This document shows, in pieces, positions 2 to 26,505 of a stretch of 64,000 nt of DNA (positions are counted from its first letter, which is position 1; every line of letters begins with the position of its first letter). Source of the DNA: Curtobacterium sp. 9128 (GTDB lineage Bacteria > Actinomycetota > Actinomycetes > Actinomycetales > Microbacteriaceae); NCBI RefSeq assembly GCF_900086645.1, contig NZ_LT576451.1, positions 868,001 through 932,000 on the forward strand, read 5' to 3'. The translations under genes and the position numbers were made by a program. Below the pieces are notes generated by a model. That model was not told the origin of the DNA. It ran no database searches and saw only the letters and a program-made list of their open reading frames with translations.

Positions 2-703
2 CCGCTCGGTCTCGTCGGGCTCTACCTCCGCACGAAGCTCGAGGACACCCCGGAGTTCCGGGCGCTCAAGGCGAAGGGCGAGGTCGCGGCGAACCCGCTG
101 CGCCGCTCGATCCGCAGCTCGTGGAAGGCGCTGCTGTTCTGCGTCGGGTTCGTCGTGATCAAGGCCGTCGGTCACTGGATCCTGCAGACGTTCATGCCGT
201 CCTACCTGCAGACCGACCTCGGGTACTCCCCGCTGGTGTCCTACGGCGCCGTCGTCCTCGGGTTCATCGTGATCGCCGCCCTGGTGCCGTTCTTCGGGCT
301 GCTGTCGGACAAGATCGGCCGGAAGCCCGTCATGCTGGCCGGTTGCGCGGGGTTCGTCGTGTTGACCTACCCGACGCTCATGCTCATGAACGCCGGCAAC
401 TTCTGGGCGGCGGCCGGGGCGATGATGCTCCTCGGGTTGTTCATGGCCGCGTTCGACGGTGCCGTGAGTGCCGCGATGGCCGAGCTCTTCCCGACGAACA
501 TCCGCTACGGCTCGATGGGCATCGCCTACAACATCAGCGTGGCCGTCTTCGGTGGGATCACCCCGTACTTCGCCACCTGGCTGATCGCCTCCACGGGCAA
601 CACGTTCGCACCGGCCTTCTACGTGATGGCCGCCGCGCTGATCAGCGGCATCGCGGTCCTGCGGGCCCGCGAGACCAACAAGGCCTCGTTGCGTCCGGAG
701 TGA
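2..703 (+). CDS. MFS transporter, C-terminal part (window cuts the 5' end)
   Basis: The reading frame is open from the window edge, so only about 233 C-terminal residues are visible. They hold about five to six hydrophobic helices of the second half of a major facilitator. A cytoplasmic loop motif of the type GLLSDKIGRKPVM is visible (about residues 99-111 of this fragment), the signature between helices of MFS carriers. The sequence GTVSA-like stretch and the IRYGSMGIAYN segment resemble the metabolite:H+ symporter (MHS, ProP/KgtP-like) subfamily, which imports organic acids or osmolytes. The substrate cannot be read from this part. It ends 17 bases before a strong terminator, so it is the last gene of its unit. 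Confidence 0.85.
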   Translation, partial: PLGLVGLYLRTKLEDTPEFRALKAKGEVAANPLRRSIRSSWKALLFCVGFVVIKAVGHWILQTFMPSYLQTDLGYSPLVSYGAVVLGFIVIAALVPFFGLLSDKIGRKPVMLAGCAGFVVLTYPTLMLMNAGNFWAAAGAMMLLGLFMAAFDGAVSAAMAELFPTNIRYGSMGIAYNISVAVFGGITPYFATWLIASTGNTFAPAFYVMAAALISGIAVLRARETNKASLRPE

Positions 704-17206: not shown

Positions 17207-17923
17207 ATGCCCACCCTGACCTCCACTGCCGGGAAGCCGACGGCCGCCGTGTACGTCGACGGCTTCAACCTCTTCCGCCGTGCCCTCCATGGTCGTGGCG
17301 ACCTCAAGTGGCTCGACCTCGAACTGCTCTGCAGCCATCTCCTGCCGACCTACGACGTCGGCCAGATCCGTTACTTCACGGCGAGGGTGCGCCACGTCGA
17401 GGGAAGGAATCCAAGCGGGCCGCAGAACCAGGAGGCGTACCTCCGAGCACTCGCCACCCTGCCGTCCGTCTCGTTGCACTTCGGGACGTTCCGTGCGGAC
17501 AAGCGCTGGATGGCGCTGTCCCCGCTCGAGCGCGATGCCGCCGGGGAGCCGAGGCGGGTCCGCGTGCGGAAGATCGAGGAGAAGGGGACGGACGTGAGTC
17601 TCGCGTCGCACATGGTGTGCGACGCGATGCACGACCTGGTCGACACGTACTTCCTGCTCTCGAACGACTCCGACTTCGCGGAGGCACTGCGGCTCGTGCG
17701 ATCACGTGCCCGTCGACAGGTCGGGCTCATCGTTCCGGCGGGGGCGGCGGCGCGGGAGCTGCTCCGGCTCGAACCGGACGAGATCCGTGTCGTTCGGGAA
17801 GGAAATCTGCGGGAAAGTCAGTTCCCCGACCGGATCGTCGACGAGCTCGGCGGGTTCTCGCGCCCGAAGGCCTGGAGAGAAGCAGGGGCCCCGTTCCGTG
17901 GAACAGGGCCCCGCGCCGGTTAG
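17207..17923 (+). CDS. NYN-domain (PIN-like) ribonuclease
   Basis: A 238-residue protein of the NYN/LabA group of the PIN nuclease superfamily. Conserved acidic motifs are complete: AVYVDGFNLF near residue 15, IEEKGTDVSLASHMVCDAM near 124 and LLSNDSDFAEALRLV near 150, which together form the Mg2+ site of these RNases. The C-terminus (about 200-238) differs strongly from the decayed copy at 26 kb because it is encoded by a GC hairpin. The start is ATG 17207 (CGGCGG upstream, no clear Shine-Dalgarno; TCATCG lies 9 nt away). The stop TAG is inside a conserved 3' element, see 17885. The RNA target is unknown. Confidence 0.87.
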   Translation: MPTLTSTAGKPTAAVYVDGFNLFRRALHGRGDLKWLDLELLCSHLLPTYDVGQIRYFTARVRHVEGRNPSGPQNQEAYLRALATLPSVSLHFGTFRADKRWMALSPLERDAAGEPRRVRVRKIEEKGTDVSLASHMVCDAMHDLVDTYFLLSNDSDFAEALRLVRSRARRQVGLIVPAGAAARELLRLEPDEIRVVREGNLRESQFPDRIVDELGGFSRPKAWREAGAPFRGTGPRAG

Positions 17924-17998
17924 CCGTTTGCGGCACCCCGGGTTGCGTGACGAGCGTAACCTGACTGGTCGCCGCCCGCAACTGCAGTATCACATTCA
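17885..17998 (+). ncRNA. Candidate structured 3' RNA element, copy A
   Basis: It overlaps the 3' end of the NYN gene. In order: a 12-bp hairpin (GGGGCCC-C-GTTCC pairing with GGAAC-A-GGGCCCC, 17885-17912), the small stem CGG-TTAG-CCG (17917-17926), helix GCGGC (17930-17934)/GCCGC (17971-17975) enclosing ACCCCGGG, an AGCGTA motif, and a conserved tail beginning CCGCAACTG. Copy B at 26383-26505 keeps the same order with different helix sequences. The tail overlaps the stop codon of the convergent GntR gene. Function is unknown; it could be a terminator/3' stabiliser, a target of the nuclease, or an independent small RNA. Confidence 0.6.
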
Positions 17999-18730
17999 GA
18001 TCGCGGGGCCTGCTGACCGCAGGGCCTCGGCGCGGTCGGGCGACGAACGCGCCGCGTACCCGATCCGGCTCTCGCGGACGTGCCACCCCATCCGCTCAGC
18101 CGCCGCATCCACGTCGCCGGCGTCGATCGCCGCGAGGATGCGTCGGTGCTCGGGCCACAGCCGCTTGCCACGGGAGAACGTGTCCGTGGCGTACAACCAC
18201 TCGATCTTCCGGGACAACTGCCGGAGCAGCGTCGCGAGCGTCGCACTGCCGGAGAGTTCGGCGACCAGGAAGTGGAAGCGGTCGTTGAGGTCGACGAGCA
18301 GGTCGAGTTCGTCCCGCTCGACCGCGTCGTCACCGGCGTCCAGGACCGCGCCGAGCTCGCGCCGGATCCGCCACCAGTCCTCGGGCGGGGCGTCACCGTC
18401 GAAGAGCGTGCGCGCCCGGGTGGCCGCACGCCTGGCGGTGGCGATCTCGAGCGACTCCCGCACGGCGAACAGGTCGTCGGCCTCGTCGAACGGGATCGCC
18501 GCGATCCTGGAGCCCACGTTCGGCTGCGACACGACGAAGCCCTCGCCCTCGAGGCCGCGCAACGCCTCGCGCACCGGGACCCGGGAGACGCCGTACCGCT
18601 CCGCGAGGAACGCCTCCGTCACCCGGGTCCCGGGCAGCAGCGCGCCGGCGACGATGTCGCGGCGGATCGCGTCGAGGACGCCGGCACCGTTCAGCACGGT
18701 CACGATCGTCTCACGCGGACGACCGCCCAC
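17996..18730 (-). CDS. GntR-family transcriptional regulator, FadR/FCD type
   Basis: About 244 residues from GTG 18730; an upstream ATG at 18781 would overlap the ABC gene by 41 bases and GTG 18703 is also possible. The winged helix (VLDAIRRDIVAGALLPGTRV, then FLAERYGVSRVPVREALRGL) is followed by an all-helical FCD ligand domain (about 90-230) with the metal-binding pattern of Asp/His residues (DLNDRFHFLVAELS, LWPEHRRILAAI, ERMGWHVRES). It is the last gene of the peptide-transport/GGT operon. Its likely operators are the TGATTG-CATA-CAATCA and TGTATACA palindromes in front of oppA-like gene 25719, which fit the FCD-type consensus. The ligand is probably the transported peptide or its product. 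Confidence 0.88.
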   Translation of the reverse strand: MGGRPRETIVTVLNGAGVLDAIRRDIVAGALLPGTRVTEAFLAERYGVSRVPVREALRGLEGEGFVVSQPNVGSRIAAIPFDEADDLFAVRESLEIATARRAATRARTLFDGDAPPEDWWRIRRELGAVLDAGDDAVERDELDLLVDLNDRFHFLVAELSGSATLATLLRQLSRKIEWLYATDTFSRGKRLWPEHRRILAAIDAGDVDAAAERMGWHVRESRIGYAARSSPDRAEALRSAGPAI

Positions 18731-18740
18731 GGCGAGTGCG

Positions 18741-20376
<1,636 letters not shown>

Positions 20377-20393
<17 letters not shown>

Positions 20394-22233
20394 GTCCCTG
20401 TGCTCCTCTCGGGTTGGCTGCGGCGCCCATGACGCCGGTTGCGGGGTCGCGCGTCACGCACGACAGGCGGCCGAGCGCCCAGTCGCCGGCTCGGGTGACG
20501 ACGTGGCCGAGTTCCTCGAGGCCGGCGATCACGTCCTCGCCGAGCCGGTCCTCGACGACGAGGCCGCCCGGGGTCCAGGTCCGCGGCCAGAACGACCCGG
20601 GGAACGAGGTCGTGTGCAGCGCGGGCGCGTCGATGGCCTGCTGCGGGGAGTACCCGCCGACGATCGTGCGGAGCAGGAAGAGCAGCTGCCACTGGTCCTG
20701 CTGGTCGCCGCCGGGGGACCCGAGCGCCACGACGGGCTCGCCGTCACGGAGCACGAGCGTCGGGGTCAGTGTCGTCCGAGGGCGCTCGCCGGGGCGGAGC
20801 GTCGACGCGGTGCCCTCCTCGAGCCAGGTCATCTGCATGCGGGTGCCGAGGCAGAACCCGAGCTCGGGGATCGTCGGGGAGGACTGCAGCCATCCGCCGG
20901 ACGGCGTCGCGCTGATGATGTTGCCCCAGCGGTCGACGACGTCGATGTGGACCGTGTCGCCGCGGGTCTCGCCGGTCGCCATCACGATCGGCTCACCTCG
21001 GTCCTCGACGGGTGCCGGGACGGTCGGTTCGCCGACGCCGGCGATGGGTTCGCCGCCCGGTGTGTACGTCTCGCGGAGCGGCGGGAGCGTGCTCGGGCCG
21101 TCGGCGGTCGTCCCCGGGCGGAACTCGTGGGACGCGTGGTCGCCGATCAGCGCACGACGGGCGTCGGTGTACGCGTCGCTCAGCAGCGCGTCCATCGGGA
21201 CGTCGTGGTCGCCGTAGTACGCCTCGCGGTCGGCCATGGCGAGCTTCTGCGCCTCGACGATGGTGTGTGCGCCGTCGACCGTCGACGGGTCGAGCTGGGC
21301 GTCGTCGAAGGGCTCGAGCAACCGCAGGGTCTGCAGCAGTGCGGGTCCCTGCCCCCACGGGCCGGTCTTCGCGACCGTGTACCCGCGGAACTCGGCGGTC
21401 GTCGCGGGCTCGTAGGACGCCCGGAACGCGGCCATGTCGCTCGCGCGGATGACGCCGGCGTGGTCGGTGCCCGAGGCGTGCCGGTGCGGGGCGCGCACGA
21501 ACCGGTCGATCGCCTCCGCGACGAACCCGCTCGACCACGCATCGCGCGCAGCGTCGATGCGGGCGACCCGGTCGTCCGCGCTGCCGCCCGTGTGCGCAGA
21601 GCCGGCGTCGACGAGCCGGTCGAGCACTGCAGCCCACGTCTCGTTGCGGATGACGGTCCCGGGGACCGGCACCCAGCCTCCCGGCATCCACCGAGCAGCG
21701 GAGGACGGCCAGTGATCCCGGAACAGGTCCTGGACCGTGCTGATCGTGGCGACCACGCGGGGCGCGACCGGGTGGCCGTCGCGCGCGTAGCCGATGGCGA
21801 AGGCGAGGACGTCGGCCAGTTCCCACGTGCCGTGGTCTCGGAGGAGCATGAGCCAGGCGTCGACGGCACCGGGCACGGCGGCCGCGAGTGCGCCGGCGCC
21901 GGGGACCAGGTCGAGGCCCTCGGCCCGGAAGTGTTCCGGGGTGGCGCCCGCCGGTGCCGGACCCTGGCCGACCAGCACCGTCGGTGTCTTGTCGTCGGCG
22001 GTGGCGAAGACGGCGGTCATGTCGCCGCCTGGACCGTTCAGGTGCGGTTCGACGACGTGCAGGACGAATGCGCCGGCGACGGCGGCGTCGAATGCGTTGC
22101 CGCCGCGTTCCAGGACGGCCTGCGCGCTCGCGGTGGCGATCCAGTGCGTGGCGGCGGCCATGCCGAACGTGCCCTGCAGGTCGGGACGTGTGGTGTGGGC
22201 GGTCGGCTGGACGAAGGCGGGGTTGGTGCTCAT
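20377..22233 (-). CDS. ggt: Gamma-glutamyltransferase / gamma-glutamyl hydrolase family enzyme
   Basis: A 618-residue Ntn-hydrolase of the GGT family, which removes the gamma-glutamyl group from glutathione and gamma-glutamyl peptides. The N-terminal part contains GGNAFDAAVAGAFVLHVVEP and HLNGPGGDM, typical of GGT. The autoprocessing and nucleophile region reads GETRGDTVHIDVVDRWGN (about residue 412), with Thr before V-H as nucleophile, in place of the classic TTHF. Downstream, LTPTLVLRDGEPVVALGSPGGDQ matches the small subunit. No signal peptide is seen, so unlike many GGTs it is probably cytoplasmic and acts on imported peptides. It lies inside a peptide ABC operon, 5 bases after dppC. Confidence 0.9.
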
Positions 22234-22238
22234 GGTGC

Positions 22239-23114
22239 TCACTTGCGGTCCGATGCGGTCGGGTCGAGGGCGTCGCGCAGGGCGTCCCCGAACAGGTTGA
22301 AGCCGAGGCAGATCACGGCGATGGCGATGCCGGGGACCACTGCGGCCCACGGTGCCTGACCGAGGTACTGCTGCGCGTCCGAGAGCATGATGCCGAGGCT
22401 CGGGGTCGGCGGCTGGATGCCCAGACCGAGGAACGACAGCAGCGCTTCGCCGATCACCGCGACCGGCATGATCACCGTCGCCTGCACGATGATCGCGGAG
22501 ACGCAGTTCGGCAGGACGTGCTGCGCGATGATCCGGGCACCACCGGCGTCGAGGGTCTTCGCGCTCGTCACGAAGTCGGCGCTCGTGATGCGCAGCGTCT
22601 CACCGCGCACGATGCGGATCATCGCCGGGACGTGCGAGACGCCGATGGCGATGACGGCGTTCGACAGGCTGGGGCCGCTGATCGCGGCGAGGCCGACCGC
22701 GATGATGAGGAACGGGAACGCCAGGGCGACGTCGGTCAGGCGCGAGATGATCGCGTCGAGCCACTTCCAGTAGCCAGCGAGGAGCCCGAGCGGGGTCCCG
22801 ACGACGACGGCGACGAGCACGGAGAGTGCGCCGACCACGAGTGAGACCTGCACGCCGTAGAGCGTGCGGGACAGGATGTCGCGACCGAGGTCGTCGGTAC
22901 CGAGGCCGAAGCCGACGGTGAACGGCACCTGGAACGGCAGGTCGAAGTGCGTCTGCGTGGGGTCGTGCGGCGCGACGAGCGGAGCGGTCAGCGCGGCGAG
23001 CACGACGACCGCGAGCATGACGCCGCCGGTGAGCCCGAGGCGGTTCGCCCTGACCTGCTTCCAGACGCGGCCGCGGCTGGAGCCGAGGTCGAACGTGGGT
23101 GTCACGGTGGTCAT
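22239..23114 (-). CDS. Peptide ABC transporter permease (DppC type)
   Basis: A 291-residue membrane protein with about six helices. An N-terminal OppC_N segment (RVWKQVRANRLGLTGGVMLA) precedes the permease domain. The EAA loop reads EALLSFLGLGIQPPTPSLGIML, the highly conserved DppC signature that contacts the ATPase. The ATG at 23114 overlaps the stop of the dppB-like gene (ATGA). It forms the translocation pore together with the DppB-type subunit; with the GGT gene next, the substrate is likely a gamma-glutamyl peptide or glutathione. Confidence 0.93.
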   Translation of the reverse strand: MTTVTPTFDLGSSRGRVWKQVRANRLGLTGGVMLAVVVLAALTAPLVAPHDPTQTHFDLPFQVPFTVGFGLGTDDLGRDILSRTLYGVQVSLVVGALSVLVAVVVGTPLGLLAGYWKWLDAIISRLTDVALAFPFLIIAVGLAAISGPSLSNAVIAIGVSHVPAMIRIVRGETLRITSADFVTSAKTLDAGGARIIAQHVLPNCVSAIIVQATVIMPVAVIGEALLSFLGLGIQPPTPSLGIMLSDAQQYLGQAPWAAVVPGIAIAVICLGFNLFGDALRDALDPTASDRK

Positions 23115-24064
23115 CGGGTGCCTCCCACGCGGATCTTCGGGTTGATGACCGAGTACAGGACGTCCACGGCCAGGTTGATCACGACGTAGCCGACCGTGAT
23201 GACGAGCACGACCGCCTGGATCACCGGGTAGTCGCGGGTGAACACCGAGTCGAGCGTCAGCTTGCCGAACCCGGGGAGCGCGAAGATGCGCTCGGTGACG
23301 ACGGCGCCCGAGATGAGCCCGCCGAGCTGCAGCCCGACGATGGTGACGACCACGATCATCGAGTTGCGGAGCCCGTACCGGAACAGCACCCGGCCGCGGC
23401 CGAGCCCCTTCGCCCGTGCGGTCCGGACGAAGTCGGTCTTCATCGTCTCGATCATCGACGCACGGGTCTGCCGCATGATCACGGCCGCGAGCGAGGTGCC
23501 GAGGATGAGTGCCGGCAGGGTCAGGTGGTAGAGCGCACTGAGCGGGTTCGACGTCATCGGGACGTACCCGGACGCCGGGAACCAGCCGAGGCCTGCCGCC
23601 AGCCACACGATCGCCAGGATGCCGAGCCAGAAGTTCGGGACGCTGAGGCCGACGAGCGCAGCGGCGTTCGCCATCCACTCCGGCCACTGCCCGCGGTAGC
23701 GCTCGGCCAGGGTGCCGAGGGCGACCCCGACGAGCACGGCGACGACGATGGCGTAGAGCGCGAGCCACAGTGTGACCGGGAGCGTCGAACCGATGAGCTC
23801 GGTCACCGGGGTGCCCGTGCGGGTCGAGCGGCCGAAGTCGCCCTGGAACGCGTTCACCAGGAAGCGCCAGTACTGCACGACGATCGAGTCGTCGAGGCCG
23901 AGCTGCGCCCGGACCGCGGCGAGCCGTGCAGGGCTCGCCTCCTCGCCGGCCAGCGCGAGCGCCGGGTCGCCCGGGAGCTGCCGGACCCCGAAGAACACGA
24001 CGATCGACGCGAGCACCAGCGTGATCGCCGACTGCCAGATGCGGGTGCTGACGTAGCGGATCAC
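23111..24064 (-). CDS. Peptide ABC transporter permease (DppB type)
   Basis: A 317-residue membrane protein. The N-terminal signature RIWQSAITLVLASIVVFF and FFGVRQLPGDPA is typical of DppB/OppB, and the EAA-type loop includes DFVRTARAKGLGRGRVLFRY. About six transmembrane helices are present. The GTG start at 24064 overlaps the stop of the substrate-binding-protein gene (GTGA), so the operon is tightly coupled. It pairs with the DppC-type permease. Confidence 0.93.
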   Translation of the reverse strand: MIRYVSTRIWQSAITLVLASIVVFFGVRQLPGDPALALAGEEASPARLAAVRAQLGLDDSIVVQYWRFLVNAFQGDFGRSTRTGTPVTELIGSTLPVTLWLALYAIVVAVLVGVALGTLAERYRGQWPEWMANAAALVGLSVPNFWLGILAIVWLAAGLGWFPASGYVPMTSNPLSALYHLTLPALILGTSLAAVIMRQTRASMIETMKTDFVRTARAKGLGRGRVLFRYGLRNSMIVVVTIVGLQLGGLISGAVVTERIFALPGFGKLTLDSVFTRDYPVIQAVVLVITVGYVVINLAVDVLYSVINPKIRVGGTR

Positions 24065-25719
24065 TTCGTCGCTCCTTCCACGAACGCGGCCTTGCTCAGC
24101 CGCACGACGCCGTCCGCGTACGTTGAGACGCCCGCGATCGTGTTCCCGACGCCGGTGATGCTCCGGGTCCGGTAGAGGTAGATGATCGGGTCGTCTCGTT
24201 GGACGATCTTCGTCATCTCGCCGTAGAGGTCGGCTCGCTCCTGCTCGTCGGTCGACTGCGCGGCGCGGGTGATGAGGTCGTCGACCTCGGCGTTGCTGTA
24301 GCCGGCGTAGTTGTTGCCGCCACCCGTCGTCAGGAAGCCGCCGATGTTGCCGTGCGGGTCGACGCGGCCGGACCAACCGAGCTGCAGCGCCTGGAAGTCG
24401 CCGCGGGTCTGGTCGTCGAGCAGTGTCGTGTACTCGACCGGGGTGATCGTGATCGCGAAGCCGCCACTGCGGGCCTGCGCCTGCAGTGCCTGGGCGAACC
24501 GCACGGTGTCGGGGGTGTTCGTCACCTCCATCTCGATCGGGAACGGCTGCTGGACGCCCGCATTCTCGAGGATCTTCTTCGCGGCGGCCGGGTCGTACTC
24601 CGGGCACGCCTTGCTCGCCGTGCTGGCGAACACGCTCGTGTCCGGCACGGGCGAGCACGCGACGTCGGCCCAACCGTGGAACACGCTCTGCACGAGTTCC
24701 GCCCGGTTGATCGACATCGACAGGGCCCGGCGGACGTCCGCGCGCTTCGCCAGCGGGGTGTCGATCTGCTTCGGGTCCGTGCCGACGCCGTCCTGGTTGC
24801 CGATGTTCACGGTGATGCCCTGGTAGCCGAGGGAACCCGTCCGCAGGATGGACAGGTCCTTGCGCTTCCGCAGGTCGTCGACGTCCTGCGTGGAGATCGT
24901 GTCCGCCACCTGGACGTCGCCGGAGCGGAGGTTCGCCGCCCGGATGCTGGCGTCGGTGATGATCCGGTAGGTGATCGTGTCGAAGTGCGCCGACGACGGG
25001 TCGTAGTACTCCGGGTCCTTCTCGACCTGGATCGAGGTCTGCGGGACGCGCTTCACGAACTTGTACGGGCCGACGCACACCGGGGAGTCGCCGAAGTCGT
25101 CGCCCTTCTCCGCGAGCGCCGTCGGCGACATCACCATGCCCGCGCGGTCCGCGAGCGCCGCGGTGAGCGGGGCGAACGGGGTGTCGTAGTGGAGCCGCAC
25201 GGTGTGGTCGTCCACCGCCTCGACGTCGGACACCGGGCCGAGCTCGCTCTTCCGGCTGGAGTCCGCCTTCGTCAGGTTCCGCTCGAGCGTCGTCACGACC
25301 GCGTCGGCGTCGAACGGCGTGCCGTCGGCGAACCGCACGCCGGTCTTGACCGGGAACGTGACGGTCTTGCCGCCGTCGCTCACCGTCGGGAGCTCCGTCG
25401 CGAGCATCGGGACGAGGGTGCCCTCGGCGTCGATGTCGTAGAGCTTCTGGCACATCGTCTCCATGACGTACCGGGTGTACAGCGACGACGAGGTGGTCGG
25501 GTCGAGGCGGTCGGGCTCTGCCGAGAGCGCCATCACCAGGTCACCGCCCTCCTTGATCTGCTGGTCGCCGATCGGGGCGGTGGTGACGGTGCCGGCGGTG
25601 GTGCCGCCGGCCTTCGAGCGTTGGACGGGGACGCAGGCGGTGAGTGCGAGCGTCGCGGCGATGAGGACGGCGGGCAGCGCGATGAGCGTGCGTCGTCGTC
25701 GGGGGCTGATCGGGGACAT
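24061..25719 (-). CDS. Peptide ABC transporter substrate-binding lipoprotein
   Basis: A 552-residue family 5 (DppA/OppA/GsiB) solute-binding protein. The signal peptide RRRRTLIALPAVLIAATLAL ends in a lipobox LTAC, so the mature protein is anchored to the outer face of the membrane. The family hallmark EGGDLVMALSAEPDRLDP (about residues 50-67) and the FRDG-like KTGVRFADGTPFDADAVV (about 130) are clear. It captures peptides for the permease pair encoded downstream. The start is ATG 25719 with AGGA upstream; 25 further residues upstream to ATG 25794 would destroy the signal peptide. It is the first and promoter-proximal gene of the six-gene operon. Confidence 0.93.
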   Translation of the reverse strand: MSPISPRRRRTLIALPAVLIAATLALTACVPVQRSKAGGTTAGTVTTAPIGDQQIKEGGDLVMALSAEPDRLDPTTSSSLYTRYVMETMCQKLYDIDAEGTLVPMLATELPTVSDGGKTVTFPVKTGVRFADGTPFDADAVVTTLERNLTKADSSRKSELGPVSDVEAVDDHTVRLHYDTPFAPLTAALADRAGMVMSPTALAEKGDDFGDSPVCVGPYKFVKRVPQTSIQVEKDPEYYDPSSAHFDTITYRIITDASIRAANLRSGDVQVADTISTQDVDDLRKRKDLSILRTGSLGYQGITVNIGNQDGVGTDPKQIDTPLAKRADVRRALSMSINRAELVQSVFHGWADVACSPVPDTSVFASTASKACPEYDPAAAKKILENAGVQQPFPIEMEVTNTPDTVRFAQALQAQARSGGFAITITPVEYTTLLDDQTRGDFQALQLGWSGRVDPHGNIGGFLTTGGGNNYAGYSNAEVDDLITRAAQSTDEQERADLYGEMTKIVQRDDPIIYLYRTRSITGVGNTIAGVSTYADGVVRLSKAAFVEGATK

Positions 25720-25781
25720 GCGGTTCCTGATGCTGGGGAGGTGCGTGGCGTCCCTTGTGGGGTCGCGCTCAGGATCGGGGT

Positions 25782-25843
25782 TGATTGCATACAATCACAC
25801 GCGTTGGCTGTCGCTTGTATACATTTCGTTTCGGTTGTGTAAA
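25782..25843 (-). promoter_or_regulatory. Promoter and GntR operators of the peptide/GGT operon
   Basis: Read on the minus strand, TTTACA (25843-25838), a 16-nt spacer and TATACA (25821-25816) form a good -35/-10 promoter. The perfect palindrome TGTATACA (25816-25823) covers the -10. A second dyad TGATTG-CATA-CAATCA (25782-25797) lies just downstream. Both resemble FCD-type GntR sites, and the operon ends with an FCD regulator. The region is conspicuously AT-rich for this genome. Confidence 0.7.
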
Positions 25844-25943
25844 ACCGTTTCCGGACTTCGAGCTGGTTCCCTTCGATCGAGTGCGCAGAAGTGGCGGCCG
25901 CCCGCGCGCTCGAGACCCCACGTCAGCGCACTCGATCCGCGTG

Positions 25944-26429
25944 TCGAGGGGAAGGGCCCGCGTGAGCCGCCGGACCGGGAGTGGTACCTCCGGGCGCTCG
26001 CCACGCTGCCTCCGGTCTCGGTGCAAGCAGAGGTGTTCCTGGCACCGGCGCACGGAGTCCGCTCGAGGTCAGGTCTGATCGCATGGGCATGCCAAGGAGG
26101 CGGCGCTCCGCGAGAACCGACGCGATGGCGGGACCTTCGACGTGTCCTTCCTGTTGTCGAACGACTCCGACTTCGTCGACGCCCTCCGCATCGTGCGGGA
26201 GCGCGCGCGGAAGGAGATCGGCCTCATCGTGCCGAATGAGTCTGCGCCAGCTCGGAGTCTGCGCGAGGTCAGGCCGGGCCACATCCGGTACATCAAGCAG
26301 AGCGCGCTCCGCGGAAGTCAGTTCCCGGCGCGGGTGGTCGACGAGTTGGGCACCTTCGGGTGGCCGAGCGCTTGGGAGATGCAGAAGCCCCTCTCGATGG
26401 AGAGGGGCTTCTGGCCGGTTAGCCGTTGA
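25944..26429 (+). pseudogene. Decayed NYN-domain nuclease gene (second copy)
   Basis: It is homologous to the intact gene at 17207-17923 but broken. One frame (about 25944-26020) gives VEGKGP...EWYLRALATLPPVS, matching VEGRNP...EAYLRALATLPSVS of the intact copy. After a frameshift and a garbled middle, another frame (26142-26429) gives SFLLSNDSDFVDALRIVRERARKEIGLIVP and GSQFPARVVDELGTF. The N-terminal VDGFN motif and the central KGTDV motif are missing, so it cannot be an active nuclease. The 5' end appears replaced by the promoter region of the neighbouring operon. The 3' structured element is nevertheless well preserved. Confidence 0.8.
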
Positions 26430-26505
26430 CGTGGCACCCCGGGGGGTGATCTCAGCGTAGAGCCACCCACGCACCCGCCGCAACTGTCATGTCGTATTTG
26501 AATCC
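26383..26505 (+). ncRNA. Candidate structured 3' RNA element, copy B
   Basis: The same order of parts as copy A at 17885: a perfect 12-bp hairpin AGAAGCCCCTCT/AGAGGGGCTTCT (26383-26394, 26401-26412), CGG-TTAG-CCG (26416-26425), helix GTGGC (26431-26435)/GCCAC (26462-26466) around ACCCCGGGG, the AGCGTA motif (26454-26459) and the tail CCGCAACTG (26477-26485) ending in ATTTGAAT. The helix GTGGC/GCCAC differs from GCGGC/GCCGC of copy A by a compensated T:A to C:G pair. It lies just before the promoter of the TauE gene. Confidence 0.6.

Follow-up and report, generated by a model that had tools for sequence, protein, structure and literature searches.

A small RNA gene probably retained beside a broken NYN nuclease gene in Curtobacterium, and its possible role as an antitoxin-like partner

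Why should a structured element persist behind an NYN nuclease gene that has fallen apart? The question arises from a stretch of 64 kb (the window) of a 3.94-Mb genome whose close relatives are Curtobacterium. The window holds two NYN loci, one intact at 17.2 kb and one broken at 26 kb (25939-26380), and the same type of element follows each of them. Our preferred answer, to which we give a probability of about 0.6, is that the element would encode on the minus strand an RNA of about 65 nt, which would be the partner of the HEC-09-type NYN RNase and would restrain it as an RNA antitoxin does. The antitoxin-like function is a prediction, probable on the sequence evidence given below.

The intact and the broken NYN gene

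The protein coded at 17.2 kb carries the motifs YVDGFN, KGTDV and SNDSDF. It matches Pfam NYN (E 1.4e-9) and, with residues 14-224, positions 5-203 of the 203 in the PADLOC profile HEC-09 (PDLC04163; E 9e-33), and is a full-length NYN nuclease of this type. A search of solved structures gave no sequence match at E 0.01. At 26 kb, a sequence-only reading had taken 25944-26429 as a broken NYN gene, and rightly so, VDGFN and KGTDV being absent and the open stretch 26142-26429 matching the C-terminal part of the NYN domain only. The same reading called the body frameshifted. There is indeed a one-base gap within the third piece (which together with the element spans 26119-26459), but a simple frameshift does not describe the locus, in which three NYN pieces stand in scrambled order (Table 1).

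The close relative G011, with flanks 94-96% identical to those of the window, carries NYN intact at the 26-kb site, so that the retention of the element is not remarkable by itself. Comparison of the longest piece of the remnant with the G011 gene (79 codons) gave dS 0.46 and dN 0.125. The resulting dN/dS of 0.27 falls inside the range of pairs of intact NYN genes (0.22-0.63), suggesting normal selection on the copy at 26 kb up to a time shortly before its breakage. Since G011 is intact at this site and the remnant evolves like intact genes, the decay is, as far as sequence comparison can tell, recent, as had been offered among other possibilities, and structural. The element was also thought to have decayed less than the body. 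Actually, the identity to G011 was 84% for the body piece and 75% for the whole element (91% in its 5' half and 47% in its 3' half), and by sequence alone the element shows no excess conservation over the body. It can be called intact only in its parts: about 110 bases after the remnant retain the hairpins P1 and P2, the GGCACCCCGGG block and CAACTG.

The surroundings of these loci are variable. The interval between the M23 peptidase and TauE genes is a gene-turnover hot spot, and comparison of the window (17996-25794) with relatives (L104-L136) indicates that the side of the M23 peptidase and NYN genes on which the operon GntR - peptide ABC transporter - SBP is placed differs between Curtobacterium species. 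In many relatives a predicted protein resembling the HsdR N-terminus (restriction-type; family assigned by eye) precedes or follows the RNA gene (for instance L133 2242-3334, L104 11134-12225 and L111 8925-10013); it is frameshifted in G011 and absent from the window. In G059 (L105 11079-11326) the intact NYN gene is preceded by a fragment of NYN and a copy of the M23 C-terminus, which suggests that NYN copies duplicate and break there too. A mobile element of the TnpB/omega RNA kind was considered and rejected, because the Curtobacterium unit is not scattered and keeps to one neighbourhood, M23 - peptide ABC operon - TauE.

The element read on the minus strand

When the element is read on the minus strand, its conserved blocks follow the order TTGnnn, a spacer of 17-18 nt, TAnnnT, P2 and the GC-rich, terminator-like P1. 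The CAACTG motif noticed before overlaps the complement of the -35 box of the 26-kb copy.

Table 1. Features of the two NYN loci in the window
Feature	Position	Strand	Basis
Intact NYN nuclease gene, 238 aa, HEC-09 type	17207..17923	+	ORF list
Putative small-RNA gene, 17.2-kb copy; overlaps the NYN stop codon	17876..17946	-	R1 and R2 matches
Hairpin P1, terminator-like, 17.2-kb copy	about 17883-17915	-	
Hairpin P2, 17.2-kb copy	17916-17941	-	
Putative -10 box TACGCT, 17-nt spacer, 17.2-kb copy	17953..17958	-	TTGnnn-16..18-TAnnnT test
Putative -35 box TTGCGG, 17.2-kb copy	17976..17981	-	sequence reading; TTGnnn-16..18-TAnnnT test
NYN remnant piece A, about residues 55-85	25939..26025	+	blastn, 84% to the intact NYN gene of G011
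NYN remnant piece B, about residues 175-200, out of order	26041..26118	+	blastn, 81% to the NYN gene of G011
NYN remnant piece C, about residue 137 to the end	26119..26380	+	open frame; dN/dS against G011
Putative small-RNA gene retained beside the NYN remnant	26378..26447	-	start placed some 7 nt downstream of the -10 box
Hairpin P1, 14 bp, terminator-like, 26-kb copy	26382..26413	-	covariation
Hairpin P2, CCGG-GGU-GCC-loop-GGC-UAA-CCGG, 26-kb copy	26415..26442	-	consensus fold
Putative -10 box TACGCT, 18-nt spacer, 26-kb copy	26454..26459	-	TTGnnn-16..18-TAnnnT test
Putative -35 box TTGCGG, 26-kb copy	26478..26483	-	TTGnnn-16..18-TAnnnT test

The promoter arrangement TTGnnn-16..18-TAnnnT was found in 9 of 13 Curtobacterium copies, with 0.2 expected, and in 17 of 31 other loci, with 0.7 expected, the expectations coming from mononucleotide shuffles that preserve base composition only. 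The boxes are moderate, and a scan with a stricter promoter consensus reported none. The pattern GGTTAGCC-N0-14-GGCACCCC occurs 10 times in 66 Curtobacterium genomes, every time at an NYN locus; the control pattern, its reverse, has 0 occurrences in the same genomes. The stems and internal loop of P2 are invariant across 10 Curtobacterium copies, and the homologous hairpin covaries across phyla. In P1, compensatory (double) changes affect 7 of the 14 pairs within the genus (0 of 500 shuffles). This hairpin is similar to ordinary terminators of the genus, and the Curtobacterium terminator comes without a clean U-run. The element of 124 nt, folded on the plus strand, has a z score of -5.0. Rfam 15 gave no family at the gathering threshold and only chance-level matches at the element. 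A conserved protein tail was rejected as an explanation, because the reading frame and the stop codon differ between copies while the pairing is kept.

Taken this way, the element is probably a minus-strand gene for an RNA of about 65 nt, a transcription unit of its own and not the 3' UTR of the NYN gene. Of the roles proposed earlier, that of an element working on its own, for example as a small RNA, gains support at the sequence level from the opposite-strand promoter, from the terminator-like hairpin and from persistence where NYN is in pieces or absent. A role as the 3' end of the NYN mRNA is at odds with the minus-strand promoter and with the cross-phylum model matches, also on the minus strand. 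A role as promoter of the TauE gene was rejected, the promoter found reading away from TauE.

Relatives of the RNA in other genera and phyla

We examined the flanks of distant NYN relatives found by protein similarity, and most of them display a promoter, a hairpin and a U-run terminator within about 65-75 nt in total. A second set of loci, obtained with a HEC-09 profile search of 346 genomes of the phylum, shows by eye the same layout in most cases; at one HEC-09 gene (L196, in G372) the RNA was absent by eye. The covariance model R1, whose training set includes both window copies, matches them with E 1.9e-35 (17.2 kb) and 5e-35 (26381-26502). Other weak R1 matches (L155-L161) were rejected as ordinary terminator hairpins or chance.

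A second model, R2, was built from 14 loci, all outside Curtobacterium. Its top match in the whole window is the 17.2-kb copy (minus strand, 17874-17942, E 0.011); at the 26-kb copy there is a weak partial match of 7.9 bits to the P1 part only, so that the family membership of this copy is based on its similarity to the other Curtobacterium copies. R2 also finds, always on the minus strand, the elements of G062 (9e-7), G017 (9e-6), G022 (2e-5), G026 and G025 (0.0012), G033b (0.0027), G049 (0.003) and G058 (0.006). The Curtobacterium RNA thus appears to fit a model derived from other genera, and on the predicted RNA strand, clearly in the 17.2-kb copy and weakly in the 26-kb one. Among NYN loci outside its training, R2 detects L205 (7e-12), L191, L203, L207, L202, L194, L039, L038 and L028.

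In the extension to 37 sequences (R3), held-out matches next to NYN genes came from a prophage of Mycobacterium (E 9e-11), a plasmid of Paenarthrobacter (2e-10) and plasmids of Phaeobacter and Frondihabitans, and weaker ones from loci on E. coli and Klebsiella plasmids. Across the phylum, 15 of the 19 R3 matches below 1e-6 have a HEC-09 match at a distance of about 0.5 kb or less and 4 have none so close, a partly circular figure, as R2 and R3 had many of these loci in their training sets; the family argument is carried by the held-out loci. Strong matches of the RNA model at L214, L219, L221 and G209:C19:6063-6121 have no HEC-09 gene nearby and could be free-standing RNAs. Double changes are found at 14 of 19 pairs in alignment A4 (0 of 500 shuffles) and at 18 of 19 in A5, an alignment fitted to the model. 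From these comparisons, the identity of the RNA as a family appears well supported. In the openly available literature we found no RNA partner reported for these NYN proteins and no description of the RNA family.

Next to HEC-09-type NYN genes, RNAs with this pair of hairpins are present in several phyla, also on plasmids and in a prophage, and their position relative to the gene varies: upstream in the same sense, upstream and divergent, or downstream and convergent. L012-L014, L016, L018, L188 and others have promoter, RNA, Rho-independent terminator and RNase gene on one strand. In the E. coli plasmid locus L256, P2 forms a 33-nt tandem repeat, after which come a terminator and then the NYN gene. 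In the window the RNA is a single unit, convergent to the NYN gene and, as in Curtobacterium generally, not in type III operon order; G033 holds two elements in tandem. On another E. coli plasmid, of 3.5 kb (L255), there are apparently, by eye, two successive hairpin-terminator units upstream of 680, before the NYN gene. Of 72,556 plasmid records, 417 contain NYN relatives, among them very small plasmids of E. coli and Klebsiella; Klebsiella accounts for 203 of the 417. For some of these relatives the annotation reads 6-hydroxy-3-succinoylpyridine 3-monooxygenase HspA, apparently in error. Because the gene order varies, base pairing in cis with the NYN mRNA is an unlikely shared mechanism, and the RNA might act on or with the protein.

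Function of the RNA and comparison with known systems

A protein search found NYN relatives in 15 of the 66 Curtobacterium genomes. The RNA accompanies all 8 intact NYN genes (the 17.2-kb copy of the window's genome, G000, and those of G011, G025, G026, G033, G049, G059 and G062), and at six places it stands without an intact NYN gene. There the gene is a scrambled remnant (the 26-kb copy, G000b), carries a frameshift (G054), survives in fragments (G017) or as no more than its last 44 codons (G022), went undetected (G058) or is missing next to the second tandem element (G033b). G042 keeps part of the element and has no NYN gene. Second elements can be lost too, the deletion in G054 running, by eye, through its own. 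Keeping the RNA while losing the NYN gene is the asymmetry one would expect if the nuclease did harm in the absence of its RNA, in a small sample of cases not all independent, one of which (the G054 frameshift) might be a sequencing error.

We propose that a sigma-70-like promoter would drive a minus-strand RNA made of P2 followed by the terminator-like P1, and that this RNA would bind the NYN protein and hold the RNase in check. The 26-kb NYN copy may have been broken recently by a rearrangement among NYN copies that left the RNA gene standing. Once the nuclease is lost the RNA gene would be harmless, and it may go on protecting against another NYN copy, such as that at 17.2 kb. A wider version has about even odds in our estimation: a phylum-spanning NYN-RNA module that would act on the protein whatever the gene order, be used in addiction or against phages, and leave the RNA to survive as a free antidote.

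Compatible with this antidote reading, the 26-kb RNA copy could already be non-functional and simply undecayed so far, in a family that is real. The divergence of its 3' half from G011 and the second, intact NYN-RNA pair at 17.2 kb would fit, while all boxes and both hairpins are intact and a rough polarisation, which is a hint only, places 9 element changes on the remnant branch against 16 on that of G011 (body, 24 against 16); we consider it rather doubtful. The RNA might instead be a cofactor or guide, which within a ribonucleoprotein activates or targets the nuclease and does not inhibit it. Conserved RNA structure with varying gene order, the labelling of HEC-09 as candidate defence and its carriage on plasmids and a prophage are consistent with this, and a required cofactor would equally leave no intact nuclease without RNA. 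However, the loops are short, no variable guide segment was seen, and an RNA kept without nuclease, together with the absence of intact Curtobacterium nucleases lacking it, fits an antidote better, making a cofactor or guide unlikely. A cis-antisense RNA of the type I kind, repressing NYN by pairing with the 3' end of its mRNA, agrees with the overlap of the Curtobacterium RNA gene with the last NYN codons on the opposite strand; it is improbable, as in many relatives the RNA lies upstream, same-strand or divergent, with no mRNA overlap, and structure is conserved rather than sequence. Slightly more improbable still is a mere 3' UTR or terminator of the NYN mRNA that survives because the decay is recent, for although G011 is intact at the site, the remnant's dN/dS is that of intact pairs and P1 resembles other terminators of the genus, the promoter boxes lie at near-fixed distance on the minus strand, the cross-phylum model matches that strand and the RNA is kept where NYN is gone (G058, G022).

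A minus-strand RNA gene explains how what was seen as a 3' element outlives its gene. The literature found gives no function for the HEC-09 protein, and a conserved RNA partner makes that function testable in a two-gene experiment; it would also extend by one nuclease family the few RNases with a structured RNA as partner. In type III toxin-antitoxin systems a tandem RNA repeat, a terminator and an RNase gene follow each other, with ToxI repeats of 34-36 nt (PMC5086642). The upstream-sense loci resemble ToxIN, CptIN and TenpIN in joining an RNase gene to a small structured RNA with a terminator in between, and on one plasmid the 33-nt repeat of L256 recalls those of ToxI. In contrast, the nuclease here belongs to the Pfam NYN family and not to ToxN, the RNA mostly consists of one unit with two hairpins, and the gene for it may run convergent or divergent to that of the nuclease; the window locus has neither the one-strand order, nor tandem repeats of about 35 nt, nor a ToxN-type toxin. 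Type I antisense antitoxins are similar to the Curtobacterium loci in that a convergent RNA overlaps the 3' end of the toxin gene. However, the orientation is not conserved in the family, the overlap that would give complementarity in cis is absent in most relatives, and the partner protein, at about 210-240 aa, is a nuclease. The PADLOC HEC-09 model differs in covering the protein only, and the papers found mention no RNA partner. In AbiF/Abi_2 a single structured ncRNA lies beside a predicted RNase, in prophages and mobile DNA (PMC12373285), an arrangement and carriage like those described here, although the protein is Abi_2 instead of NYN. The occurrence of related RNAs beside NYN nucleases in many bacteria, on plasmids and in a prophage suggests that the RNA-nuclease pair of the NYN type is an undescribed one, perhaps a toxin with an RNA antidote.
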